Of a stretch of DNA of 64,000 bases, positions 53,610 to 64,000 are shown one piece after another. This DNA comes from Mycolicibacter senuensis (lineage in GTDB: Bacteria; Actinomycetota; Actinomycetes; Mycobacteriales; Mycobacteriaceae). Position 1 is the first letter of the stretch, and every line of letters begins with the position of its first letter. The position numbers were made by a program, and so were the translations under genes. The notes beneath the pieces are model-generated. The model saw nothing but the letters and a program-made list of their open reading frames with translations, was not told where the DNA came from and searched no databases. The stretch spans positions 1 to 64,000 of the forward strand of contig NZ_LQPS01000013.1 of the NCBI RefSeq assembly GCF_002101885.1, given 5' to 3'.

Positions 53610-54026
53610 TCACGCTGCTGAAGGGGAACCGATCCGGCCGGTGGGCAGGTGAAAAACCGCCGCGGCCACCGGCAGCTGCTGCCGTTCGTGGTTGGTCAGC
53701 AACGCCTGGTTATCGGGGAGCTCGCGCGAATTGATCGTGCCGGCGGCGATCTCGCGCAGCACCGCGTGGGCCTGCGCGAGCTCGGTGCGCTTGCGGTACT
53801 GGCCGCCGGGAAGCTTGACGCCGGCCCACACGCCGTACTCCTCACCGCGTTCCACCGCAAGCGCGGCGCAGCGACGCTGCTGGGCCAGCGGGCAGCGGCG
53901 CAGACATAGCAGCCGCGCCTCGGTGGCGGACTGCTCGTAGGCCCGCGCCTTGGCGGCGCCGTCGGCGCCGTCGGCGTCGGGGTAGCCGAACCACAGTTCG
54001 GGGTTGGTGGAGCAGGGGAGTGCCAT
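53610..54026 (-). CDS. whiB5: WhiB5-like iron-sulfur transcription factor
   Basis: A 138-residue WhiB protein with four cysteines (Cys5, and CLRRC plus a further Cys in PLAQQRRCAALA) and the GVWAG turn in EYGVWAGVKLPGG, followed by basic residues RKR for DNA binding. The cysteine spacing C-x3-C-x7-C is wider than the usual C-x2-C-x5-C; I recall the same in M. tuberculosis WhiB5 (139 aa, Rv0022c). The ATG at 54026 has AGGAGG 5 nt upstream. It is divergent from the Rv0023-like regulator. M. tuberculosis WhiB5 is reported to affect ESX-2 and ESX-4 genes (known, from memory). Confidence 0.88.
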   Translation of the reverse strand: MALPCSTNPELWFGYPDADGADGAAKARAYEQSATEARLLCLRRCPLAQQRRCAALAVERGEEYGVWAGVKLPGGQYRKRTELAQAHAVLREIAAGTINSRELPDNQALLTNHERQQLPVAAAVFHLPTGRIGSPSAA

Positions 54027-54055
54027 CGGGACCTCCTGTTGGCGACGGATCAGAT

Positions 54056-54122
54056 AACGTAGATGGAAACGTATATGAACGGATAGCGCCGACGCAAGAG
54101 AAGTTGATAAAAACATATATGT
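54056..54122. promoter_or_regulatory. Operator-like repeats between whiB5 and the Rv0023-like gene
   Basis: Three related A/T-rich sites occur: AACGTAGATG (54056-54065), AACGTATATG (54068-54077) and AACATATATG (54112-54121, within the perfect palindrome ACATATATGT at 54113-54122). Sites 1-2 are 12 bp apart and 2-3 are 44 bp apart, near whole helical turns. They stand out in GC-rich DNA and probably bind the divergent regulator. Confidence 0.6.
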
Positions 54123-54145
54123 AAGTCGGGTACGCGGAGGCTGTG

Positions 54146-61961: not shown

Positions 61962-62022
61962 TGTCCGTCGTCCTCTGTCGCATATACGGGTTGTCCAGCT
62001 GACTCTCGATCCGGCGATGGCG

Positions 62023-63576
62023 TCATCGCGCGGACATCGGCGCCAGCGCCTCCGGGCTGCAGTACCGGTTCTCGGCCCGGAACAATTCCACCGTAGCCAG
62101 CCACGATTTTCCGCCGGCGGTAACCCGCACCGCGGTCCGGTCGATCTGGGAGATGCTCACCTCGACTACGTCCGGTGGCGGTGGCGGCGTGCCGGGTGGC
62201 GCCACGGTGATGACGGTGGCCGGTCGCGGCGACGGGGCGATCGGCCCGTCCACCACGCTGACGGTCGAGCGCGGCGTGGGCCTCGACTCGCCGACTATCG
62301 ACACTTCCGGCATCCGGACGCTGGCCCAGCGCGCCTTGTCGGGGGTGTGCACGCATACCCGCTCCCCGGCTCCGGCGGCGCGGATGACGATCCGCTTGGC
62401 GATCAGGTCCTCGGCGGCGATGAACACCCGGCTCAGTTCGCCGGAGTCGGTCAGCGGAACCATCAGCCGGTCGCCGTTGGCCAGCTTTCCGATCAGCACG
62501 CCCGACGGGCCGATCTCGACGGGCAGGCTGTCCGGTAGGCGTCCGGGCCGCAGTCCGCGCAGTCGCGGCCGGGGAGCGCACATGTTGGCCGCTACGGCTG
62601 CGGCCTGCTCCCCGTTGAGCCGCTGCAAGACCACCGCCGGGGGAGTGGGCGCGGGTTGCGGAGTCTGCAGCGTGACGGTGGCCGTGCATGTCCCGTCCGG
62701 GAACACGGTGATGTTCTGGACCACCTCGTCGACGGGCAGGGTCCACACCTGGGCCAGCAGCGCCGCGTTGACGGCGCGGGCCGGATACGCGTAGGTGGTC
62801 ACCCAGCCGCCCTCGGTCCGCAGCGTCTTCCAGCGTTCGGCGCCGGCCAGCAGCAGGGCGCTACCGAGTCGCCGGTCCAGTTCGACCAGATCGCTGGCAG
62901 TGGCGACCCGCGCGCGTAGCCCTTCGCAGCGCAGCGCGCCCGCGATCTGCTGGGCGACGGCGACGGCGGTGGCGCCCAGGGTGGTGCGCCAGCGCAACGC
63001 GGCGGTGTTGTCGATGACGCGCAGCCGCAGCAGCAGCCAGGTCTCGCGTTGGCCGGCGTAGGGCGGGGTGCCGATCTCGGTGTCGTAGACCCGCGGATAG
63101 TCGCCGGTGGTGGCACGGCGCGCGCCGATGCTGACCACACTCATCGACTCCAGCACCAGCCCGAGCGCGTGCCGCAGCATCGGCAGCAGCGCGCTGACAT
63201 CGACGACGTTGTCGGTCTCCACGTTCACCGATCCGGTGGCGACGGTGGCGGTGTGCGCCTTGCCCAGCAGGTGCACCGCCACCACCGCCACACCGTCCTG
63301 GATGCGCACGCCGCCCCCGGCCCGGTTGTTGGCCACCGTGATCGGCTCGGCCCAGTCGGTTGCCGGTCCCCGCCGCAACCGCAGCAGCGCCCACGACCAC
63401 GCGGGCTGACCCCACCACGGCACCAGCACCACCAGCACCGCGAGCGACAGCGCCACCGCGAGCCCGATCAGACCGCCCAACGCCCAGCCGGCCAGACCGA
63501 TCAGCGCCACGGTCACGGCGGATAACAGCCGCCGGTTACTGGAGGCGCTGAACCCGCTCAGGTGGACCGAACTCAC
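62023..63576 (-). CDS. eccE2: Type VII secretion membrane component EccE (ESX-2-like)
   Basis: A 517-residue EccE protein with two N-terminal transmembrane helices (about residues 17-53, LLSAVTVALIGLAGWALG and LAVALSLAVLVVLVPWW) followed by a large soluble domain (ETWLLLRLRVIDNTAALRWR, GGWVTTYAYPARAVNAALLAQ). EccE sits at the edge of the ESX membrane pore complex and carries no catalytic motif. Its start GTG overlaps the mycP stop by 4 nt. The length agrees with EccE2 (about 537). The ESX-2 assignment rests on gene order and sizes. Confidence 0.85.
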   Translation of the reverse strand: MSSVHLSGFSASSNRRLLSAVTVALIGLAGWALGGLIGLAVALSLAVLVVLVPWWGQPAWSWALLRLRRGPATDWAEPITVANNRAGGGVRIQDGVAVVAVHLLGKAHTATVATGSVNVETDNVVDVSALLPMLRHALGLVLESMSVVSIGARRATTGDYPRVYDTEIGTPPYAGQRETWLLLRLRVIDNTAALRWRTTLGATAVAVAQQIAGALRCEGLRARVATASDLVELDRRLGSALLLAGAERWKTLRTEGGWVTTYAYPARAVNAALLAQVWTLPVDEVVQNITVFPDGTCTATVTLQTPQPAPTPPAVVLQRLNGEQAAAVAANMCAPRPRLRGLRPGRLPDSLPVEIGPSGVLIGKLANGDRLMVPLTDSGELSRVFIAAEDLIAKRIVIRAAGAGERVCVHTPDKARWASVRMPEVSIVGESRPTPRSTVSVVDGPIAPSPRPATVITVAPPGTPPPPPDVVEVSISQIDRTAVRVTAGGKSWLATVELFRAENRYCSPEALAPMSAR

Positions 63577-64000
63577 TTGACCGCCCTCCGAATCCGTGCG
63601 GTGATGCCGGCCACCAGCACGGCCGCGGCAATCGTGCCGAGGAATCCGAGGGCTACGGTCCGGGCCCGATGGTCAGGCGGTGGTGGCGGTGCTGCCGGTG
63701 TGATGACGCGGGCCCGCGACCCCGGCGCCACCGGATCGCCCGGCGGCACATTGAACGTCAGTGCCGCCACCGGGTCGACCAACCCGTAGCCGACCCGGTT
63801 GTCCACCCCCGCGGGCGGATTGTGTGCCGTCTGCACGATCCGGTTGATCACCTGGTGCGCGGTGAGCTCGGGATATTTCGCCCGAACCAGGGCCGCGACG
63901 CCACTGACGTAGGCCGCCGAGAAGCTGGTTCCCCAGAACGGCATGTTCTTCTCGCCGACCCGGACCGGGGGGTAGGCGTTGACCGGTCCGCCGCCCTGCG
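63573..64000 (-). CDS. mycP2: Mycosin protease MycP, C-terminal part (ESX-2-like, partial)
   Basis: The frame is open to the window edge and gives the last 142 residues of a subtilisin-like mycosin. The catalytic-serine motif GTSFSAAYVSGVAALV is present, followed by the VGYGLVDPVAALT end of the protease domain, a Pro-rich linker (AAPPPPPDHRA) and the C-terminal transmembrane helix (ALGFLGTIAAAVLVAGI). The Asp and His of the triad and the signal peptide lie outside the window. Mycosins anchor to and stabilise the ESX membrane complex (known). Confidence 0.9.
   Translation of the reverse strand, partial: QGGGPVNAYPPVRVGEKNMPFWGTSFSAAYVSGVAALVRAKYPELTAHQVINRIVQTAHNPPAGVDNRVGYGLVDPVAALTFNVPPGDPVAPGSRARVITPAAPPPPPDHRARTVALGFLGTIAAAVLVAGITARIRRAVK

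Follow-up and report, generated by a model that had tools for sequence, protein, structure and literature searches.

A whiB5-Rv0030 Gene Block Associated with Mycobacterial ESX-2: A Predicted Counterpart of the ESX-1 Esp Arm

Introduction

The window analyzed here, a stretch of 64,000 nucleotides of Mycolicibacter DNA (bases 1-64000 of contig C13, NZ_LQPS01000013.1, from a genome of 4.53 Mb in 54 contigs), encodes a block of eight genes homologous to whiB5, Rv0023, Rv0024 and Rv0026-Rv0030, followed by eccA2-eccE2-mycP2 of the type VII secretion system ESX-2. The markers of this block sit or co-occur with ESX-2 in other genomes, and the block probably corresponds, for ESX-2, to what the Esp arm is for ESX-1, comprising a switch, chaperones and probable cargo. 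The link of the block to ESX-2 is well supported at the genome level; its function is what we infer.

The first-pass annotation had described the block and ESX-2 as one contiguous locus. The open reading frames (ORFs), their order and the convergent junction, at which the Rv0030-like gene ends at 60113, 6 nt from the 3′ end of eccA2 at 60120, were confirmed with Pfam and NCBIfam. The protein types it had named were also recovered: WhiB, XRE, NlpC/P60, EspC and DUF4226 by their domains, and YbaB by the fold of a structure model, its Pfam match being weak and under the cut-off. ESX-2 itself, its split forms, a plasmid-borne locus and the slow-grower bias of DUF2710 are already known. In the open-access literature searched, no paper was found that joins the whiB5-Rv0030 block to ESX-2 as one unit.

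Co-Occurrence of the Block with ESX-2

The survey included 168 genomes of the genus, evenly drawn and with completeness of at least 90. DUF2710, the family of the Rv0030-like protein, was called present above 100 bits (83 genomes), and nine genomes with partial or weak matches (<40 bits) were scored as lacking it. ESX-2 was called with EccE2 of the window in 79 genomes, 75 of them at ≥47% identity over most of the protein and the remaining four through split or partial eccE2 copies of at least 200 bits. The correlation proposed in the first-pass annotation proved strong: both markers are present in 77 genomes, DUF2710 alone in 6, ESX-2 alone in 2, and neither in 83 (Fisher p = 1 × 10−37, uncorrected for kinship). 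In G069, one of the two ESX-2-only genomes, eccE2 is split and contains an internal stop. Rv0023 (≥61% identity, 87 genomes) is found together with ESX-2 in 76 genomes and alone in 11, with ESX-2 alone in 3 and neither in 78. The control neighbour Rv0021c, present in 142 of the 168 genomes, shows no association with ESX-2 (65/77/14/12 in the same order; p = 0.52). Across the order, DUF2710 scores above 100 bits in 21 of 298 genomes; these 21 belong without exception to this genus, and a single weak match lies outside it.

Kinship was controlled with a gyrB tree (one gene, quick method) of 90 of the 168 genomes: 15 discordant genomes, 45 of the 75 marker-holders across arrangements, and 30 random ones of the 78 lacking all three markers. 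At least 14 changes of ESX-2, 12 of DUF2710 and 8 of Rv0023 are required on this tree. In 11 independent pairs differing in ESX-2, DUF2710 is concordant in 6.7, opposed in 0.0 and equal in 4.3 (means; median p = 0.016). These repeated, concordant changes argue against shared ancestry alone, in which the block and ESX-2 would be slow-grower heirlooms meaningless to each other. The unassociated Rv0021c, the homologues of the whole set on a plasmid and the ESX-2 remnants in all six DUF2710-only genomes (both described below) argue in the same direction, and this explanation is regarded as improbable. It draws on the position of DUF2710 and DUF2694 at the head of a slow-grower domain table (PMC10551460), on the description of ESX-2 as slow-grower specific (PMC4791881), and on the genomes with neither marker, which mostly cluster in the gyrB tree. 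As this bias of the two domains was known beforehand, the raw table is partly accounted for by common descent and to that extent loses weight as evidence for an ESX-2 arm.

Completion and Type of the ESX-2 Locus

Contig C13 stops at 64637, inside mycP2. On contig C27, one strand encodes eccD2, an Rv3888-like gene, espG2, two esx genes, PPE, PE, eccC2 and eccB2, and the C13 end and the C27 start map side by side on M. senuensis. Therefore, the sequence past 64,000 continues with the rest of ESX-2, as the first-pass annotation had expected, and with no other ESX type. EccA, EccE and the mycosin score above their NCBIfam cut-offs, and the YukD domain of EccD on C27 is above its cut-off; EccB and EccC on C27 were recognized from their size, their place in the gene order and their resemblance to other loci. 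The ESX-2 type is indicated by the eccE2 matches at ≥47% identity, versus ≤36% and ≤167 bits for the other listed matches. The gene order of the window locus and C27 matches that of Rv3884c-Rv3895c.

Arrangements of the Block and ESX-2

The arrangement survey (ARRANGEMENTS) used local DNA from 82 of the 83 DUF2710 genomes, with G167 left out. Rv0030 is followed by eccB2 in the same direction in 39 of the 82, within ~0.2 kb in 31 and at ~0.9 kb in eight; an NlpC/P60 paralogue was detected in the gap in four of these eight. The convergence of Rv0030 with eccA2 is found in 10, all of Mycolicibacter type, and as a remnant in G094, while five further genomes have ESX-2 remnants in the co-directional layout. 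Eighteen of the 26 named loci are from the Mycolicibacter group: 13 share the convergent junction of the window, two are scarred, and three have no adjoining eccA2. This recurrence, together with the co-occurrence table, places the adjacency beyond chance. The two gene sets are neighbours in several arrangements, and the convergent form is not the commonest (10 versus 39 co-directional). As the co-directional layout is commoner, the layout of the window is a minority form and is probably derived; it was dropped as a candidate for the original arrangement.

In 16 of the 39 co-directional genomes (class A) eccE2 lies apart, at a distance of 64-75 kb where one contig carries both (11 genomes; single contigs treated as circular), and the left part starts with esxB-esxA-espG2-Rv3888 in all ten read. 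Class A resembles the split ESX-2 of M. paragordonae, in which pe36-eccC2-eccB2 is described away from the rest (PMC6616192). In class A eccB2 is right behind Rv0030, as in unsplit loci, and therefore the remaining ESX-2 part more likely moved. In seven genomes (class B) only Rv0029-Rv0030 precede eccB2, and each of the seven also has Rv0023. Where the second site was read (four genomes), whiB5-Rv0028 forms a separate locus, at most 9 kb from Rv0021c in three and on a different contig from Rv0021c in the fourth.

No ESX-2 gene was found behind Rv0030 in the DNA examined of 27 of the 82 genomes (class F), a count that is an upper bound because some contigs stop soon after Rv0030 (G012, G084). 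Where Rv0030 and eccE2 are on one contig (seven genomes), 87-106 kb lie between them. The DNA upstream of eccE2 was read in 14 class F genomes; eccB2 is there in seven and is absent from the 9-29 kb upstream in seven (L127, L129, L132-L136), in which eccB2-eccC2 must therefore lie elsewhere. These seven may represent the form of the M. avium complex, for which transposed eccB2/eccC2 are described (PMC4791881).

The six DUF2710-only genomes (G003, G038, G047, G050, G094, and G163) all have remnants of eccA2, eccB2 or eccC2 behind Rv0030, and ESX-2 was therefore lost in place. M. algericus and M. longobardus (L019:10325-11458; L023:10334-10927) have the same type of ESX-2 scar, the last 183 residues of eccA2 standing beside the first residues of eccB2. 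M. senuensis, near M. algericus, has an intact ESX-2 where read. The common scar reflects either recurrent deletion or scar transfer. In G050 (L071), the Rv0024-Rv0028 segment is inverted relative to Rv0023 and Rv0029-Rv0030.

Further genes are found next to eccB2. The upstream regions of seven M. tuberculosis-type eccB2 genes include an NlpC/P60 paralogue in five and a DUF5631 paralogue in four, similar to M. tuberculosis Rv3896c-Rv3899c, presumably the ESX-2 neighbours of that species. These paralogues differ from the block genes (~40% identity) and are additional to the block held by the same genomes. At L014:12530-13600 and 15250-16407, two related DUF4226-like proteins, 64% identical to each other over 115 aa, are encoded divergently from eccB2 and accompanied by small, possibly exported partners; they are possible further ESX-2 accessories. 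One contig filed as an Acidobacteria metagenome-assembled genome (L042:3806-15903) has the block right before eccB2-eccC2, then genes without an ESX-2 reference match, and is probably mis-binned mycobacterial DNA with a split ESX-2.

Similarity to the ESX-1 Esp Arm and the Regulator Pair

The whiB6-espM-Esp arm of ESX-1 is a closer parallel to the block than any named in the first-pass annotation. In both, a WhiB gene is divergent from the gene for a helix-turn-helix (HTH) repressor of that WhiB: EspM, divergent from whiB6 beside ESX-1, is described as repressing whiB6 (PMC7002343), and M. tuberculosis Rv0023, divergent from whiB5, as binding two TATAcgnTTTT sites and repressing whiB5 (PMC7020754). 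An EspC-family protein, an EspK-type domain and a YbaB-like protein are also common to the two, and EspM holds the same chromosomal site in other species. The ESX-1 arm comprises whiB6/espM/espE-espF-espH and espK-espL, and EspL is its YbaB-like protein. The block differs in going with ESX-2, in an Rv0023 without the FHA domain of long EspM, in the NlpC/P60 gene right behind the regulator, in having no espG, and in the unconserved YxxxD/E signal of its candidate cargo.

In the window, the HTH regulator gene is divergent from the WhiB gene and an operator-like site is present, which is the layout of an EspM-type switch. On this analogy the Rv0023 homologue is predicted to work as an EspM-type repressor of whiB5, the repression itself being reported in PMC7020754. 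An Rv0023 site with at most one mismatch is found in the whiB5-Rv0023 gap of 60 of 65 genomes (31 exact) and only seven times outside that gap in 2.23 Mb, two of these probably being the inverted gap of G050. WhiB5 affects esx-2 genes in M. tuberculosis, according to citing papers (PMC7020754, PMC10714837).

The NCBIfam EspM model matches nine of nine Rv0023 rows at E ≤ 0.01 (best 1.8 × 10−8), and the alignment extends past the HTH, from model position 134/139 to 281-313. EspM is also the best family for five of six Rv0023 relatives scanned singly at E 1 × 10−4. The identification of Rv0023 as EspM was rejected; with scores far below the cut-off, it is a relative at most. Among the best 120 of 871 matches in a protein search with the Rv0023 alignment, only close homologues are found, and the one PDB match to the Rv0023 profile was ClgR.

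EspM was located in 120 of the 168 genomes at E 1 × 10−60, with placement taken from the best matches listed; the other copies listed, checked by eye, bring no further case. Of the 142 genomes with the Rv0021c-like gene, 48 have EspM at most 10 kb away on the divergent side of that gene, and Rv0023 is absent from all 48. Most EspM matches at this site begin past model position 90 and thus represent a short form without the FHA part, like Rv0023. In 62 of the 142 it is Rv0023 that occupies this position, and among the matches listed none of the 142 has both regulators at this site.

Chaperone and Cargo Candidates

The Rv0029 domain profile matches the structure 5IMU with E 2.9 × 10−46. 5IMU is Rv3899c, encoded beside ESX-2, and a common fold is described for Rv3899c, Rv0029, Rv2082 and the EspB-binding domain of EspK (PMC9811218). 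The Rv0029-like protein is predicted from its sequence to have an EspK-type C-terminal domain, its own structure model being poor (predicted local distance difference test, pLDDT, 62). The Rv0030 model (pLDDT 87) has YbaB structures among its top structural matches, which suggests a YbaB fold. YxxxE is present near the start of the last helix in 99% of 82 DUF2710 sequences.

The Rv0024-like protein has a DCSG motif with the catalytic Cys, and no signal peptide was visible on inspection by eye. The Rv0026-like protein was not placed in the EspA/EspE family by PF18879 (16.7 bits versus the cut-off of 27, E 0.01), a weak similarity. A kinship of Rv0028 with EspD/EspH was considered and not supported, as the 120 homologues listed of 270 are, where named, DUF2694 or hypothetical proteins.

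Under the arm model, the EspM-like Rv0023 protein would hold whiB5 down, and WhiB5, once released, would raise the expression of ESX-2 and of the arm. Partner proteins would be kept by the YbaB-like Rv0030 protein and the Rv0029-like protein with its EspK-type domain, and would be handed by these two to the membrane complex of ESX-2. The exported set would consist of the DUF4226, EspC-like and DUF2694 proteins, and the NlpC/P60 enzyme would open peptidoglycan to accommodate the apparatus.

A Plasmid-Borne Homologous Set

The 144-kb M. paragordonae plasmid pMpg-2 (NZ_CP025548.1), whose ESX-2 is described in PMC6616192, carries a complete ESX-2 and homologues of all eight block genes; the main text of that paper makes no mention of DUF2710 or of Rv00xx genes. 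DUF5631 is followed, beyond transposase genes and on the same strand, by DUF4226, EspC-like, DUF2694, DUF2710 and, before eccB, another DUF4226 protein, which has a match to the Rv0024 profile as well. After eccB come eccC (two pieces), PE, PPE, two WXG100 genes, EspG, ParA, eccD, a mycosin-type protease, eccE and eccA. DUF2710 was found by the family profile (E 1.8 × 10−12) and was missed by tblastn with Rv0030 against plasmids. The 76-aa ORF of the window is absent from the homologue set.

Unlike that of the window, the plasmid set lies in two parts separated by ~32 kb and has transposase genes inserted between DUF5631 and DUF4226, and its block proteins are 32-51% identical to those of the window over the aligned parts. 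The part distant from DUF5631 consists of a WhiB gene divergent from the Rv0023 homologue (42% over 241 aa), then the NlpC/P60 homologue (42% over 294 aa). The WhiB, possibly of the WhiB5 type, is 47% identical to that of the window over 66 aa only. A WhiB gene divergent from an Rv0023-like regulator (41%) was also observed on the plasmid pTY66_01 (L252:16993-18735), where the annotation of the 18 kb flanking the pair on each side includes no ESX gene.

Two Lineages of the ESX-2 Machine

The eccB2-eccC2 tree of 44 chromosomal rows is divided into two clades, 2a and 2b (Shimodaira-Hasegawa-like approximate likelihood ratio test 100 for 2a), and the same split is obtained with the plasmid as root, the ESX-2 of pMpg-2 falling outside both. 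Clade 2a includes the window, six class F genomes, G014, G046, and G052; clade 2b includes 34 rows of classes A, B, C, and D. EccE2 identity gives the same two groups, with 40 (2a) and 39 (2b) of the 79 ESX-2 genomes, and no genome with both was seen among the 79 (eight EccE2 candidates scored in each). The convergent layout is confined to one species group, whose machine lineage differs from that of most co-directional loci; G014, G046 and G052 have the co-directional layout, yet belong to lineage 2a of the window.

DUF2710 accompanies 40 of 40 2a genomes and 37 of 39 2b genomes. Since the block is found with either machine lineage, its tie would be to the ESX-2 type and not to one copy. The 2a hosts are not a clade on the block tree (63 rows; approximately unbiased test p = 1.3 × 10−9) or on the gyrB tree (53 rows; p = 5.8 × 10−15), and at least four changes between 2a and 2b are required on the former and six on the latter. 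Therefore, the histories of the block and the machine differ, and either half may have been exchanged. A tentative proposal is that ESX-2 is a portable two-part unit with exchangeable halves, i.e., an Esp arm and either of two mutually exclusive machines, re-paired several times, the set being delivered by plasmids to the chromosomal address that the ESX-1 arm has in other species.

The same plasmid copy, and the one chromosomal site that takes either the whiB5 block or EspM, could also be read as hitch-hiking, in which common plasmids or a common insertion hot spot carry both the block and ESX-2, and position alone keeps them together. Such an origin of the association is unlikely, as the co-occurrence holds for parts separated by 64-106 kb or placed on different draft contigs, and the block and the machine, despite their different histories, are still found together.

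Evidence Weighed against a Dedicated ESX-2 Arm

Several observations weigh against the block being an arm dedicated to ESX-2. The first concerns the losses of ESX-2. Rv0023 in the ESX-2 pairs is concordant in 2.8, opposed in 0.1 and without difference in 8.1 (p = 0.25), and five genomes retain Rv0023 without ESX-2 and without a full DUF2710. The independent pairs therefore tie the Rv0030 end to ESX-2, and the whiB5-Rv0023 end at clade level, with a tendency to outlast the losses. A dependence of the whole block on ESX-2 is not supported, for whiB5-Rv0028 survives most ESX-2 losses. In four ESX-2-loss genomes, six block genes have ratios of nonsynonymous to synonymous substitution rates (dN/dS) of 0.05-0.30, the date of the loss not being fixed; pairs retaining ESX-2 have 0.04-0.27, with up to 0.65 in one very close pair. 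There is no sign of decay in the block genes after ESX-2 loss. Given the persistence of Rv0023 and this continued purifying selection, part of the arm may have another use.

The second concerns the trees, compared for 25 genomes common to the block, machine and gyrB sets (22 splits). The block and gyrB trees have 12 of 22 splits in common, with a distance correlation of 0.17, and the idea that the block simply tracks the host tree was dropped on these values. The block and machine trees disagree as well (10 of 22 splits, 0.21); the machine and gyrB trees have 10 of 22 splits in common and a correlation of 0.41. The block of the window is nearest to slow-grower-type blocks, and its gyrB to that of G157. 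As the block tree only partly agrees with gyrB, the arm and the exchangeable halves were both rated slightly lower, and the division of the block into two units, considered below, slightly higher.

The third concerns regulation and export. No Rv0023 operator was found before eccB2 or other ESX-2 genes in the 2.23 Mb scanned, and since the operator is at whiB5, any effect of Rv0023 on ESX-2 would run through WhiB5. In the WhiB/HTH gap of pMpg-2 no operator is present within two mismatches, and for one M. tuberculosis strain with raised whiB5, ESX-2 is described as not raised except mycP2 (PMC10714837). Rv0023 scores 20.6-33.7 bits with the EspM model and does not reach the equivalog cut-off of 550; for the Rv0023 protein of the window two generic HTH families rank ahead of EspM, which comes third, and with residues 70-259 by themselves EspM is not matched. 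The YxxxD/E signal is not conserved in the alignments of Rv0024, Rv0026, Rv0027 and Rv0028, which speaks against the EspC-like and NlpC/P60 proteins as ESX-2 substrates, a role suggested for them in the first-pass annotation. The signal is conserved in PE as the positive control (80%) and at places in Rv0029 (58-100% of 19 rows).

These points bear on the alternative that the block is two units, in which the Rv0029-Rv0030 chaperone pair belongs to ESX-2 and whiB5-Rv0023-Rv0024-Rv0026-Rv0028 form a separate regulon or cargo set also serving other ESX systems or the envelope. The separation of the halves in the class B genomes read, the distance of WhiB-HTH-NlpC from the rest on pMpg-2, the survival of Rv0023 after ESX-2 losses, and the continued purifying selection on block genes are consistent with it. 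The split is not clean, since DUF4226-EspC-DUF2694-DUF2710 form one run before eccB on the plasmid, and 76 of the 79 genomes with ESX-2 carry Rv0023. Two units are thus possible although doubtful, and a single ESX-2 arm is preferred.

Features of the Window

The features of the locus are listed in Table 1. The start of whiB5 is probably 54026 and not 54116, as an AGGAGG ribosome-binding site and ATG are seen in the sequence. The closest named relatives of the Rv0030-like protein in the scan are from M. algericus (99%) and M. senuensis (98%). Elsewhere in the window, the ORF at the gyrA position (21782-25546) encodes 1254 aa. GyrA is usually ~400 aa shorter, and an intein is likely.

Table 1. 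Coordinates of the block, ESX-2 genes and flanking features in the window.
Feature	Position	Strand	Remarks
Rv0021c-like flanking gene	52584..53603	-	Outside the unit; control and address marker of the site
whiB5-like WhiB regulator	53610..54026	-	138 aa; Pfam Whib 41.4 bits; ORF open to 54116
Rv0023 operator-like site TATATGTTTTT	54109..54119	-	Upstream of whiB5; differs from the published site at 1 position (mean expected by chance, 0.05)
Rv0023-like XRE regulator	54175..54954	+	XRE HTH; distant kin of the EspM C-terminal part
Rv0024-like NlpC/P60 endopeptidase	54941..55774	+	PF00877 72.8 bits, above cut-off
Rv0026-like DUF4226 protein	55859..57244	+	PF10774 124.9 bits
Rv0027-like EspC-family protein	57260..57574	+	PF10824 59.9 bits (cut-off 23.5)
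Rv0028-like DUF2694 protein	57574..57900	+	PF10904 199.4 bits
76-aa ORF	57961..58191	+	tblastn matches in Mycolicibacter-type loci only
Rv0029-like protein	58201..59745	+	Pro-rich linker, then DUF5632-DUF5631 (Rv3899c/EspK-type domain)
Rv0030-like DUF2710 protein, YbaB-like fold (model)	59796..60113	+	PF10921 199.7 bits
eccA2	60120..61961	-	TIGR03922 708 bits
eccE2	62023..63576	-	TIGR03923 212 bits; ESX-2 type by identity gap
mycP2, cut by the window edge	63573..64000	-	TIGR03921 284 bits

Significance

Few mycobacterial secretion systems are as poorly understood as ESX-2, whose substrates and control are largely unknown; it is described as needed for phagosome permeabilisation (PMC8593097). 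A conserved arm would give a short list of candidate cargo, chaperones and a switch, and would explain why an uncharacterised block accompanies ESX-2. The six genomes with ESX-2 remnants in which DUF2710 and Rv0023 are kept represent natural knockouts for comparison. A single arm paired with either of two ESX-2 machines would represent a new pattern in the evolution of secretion systems.

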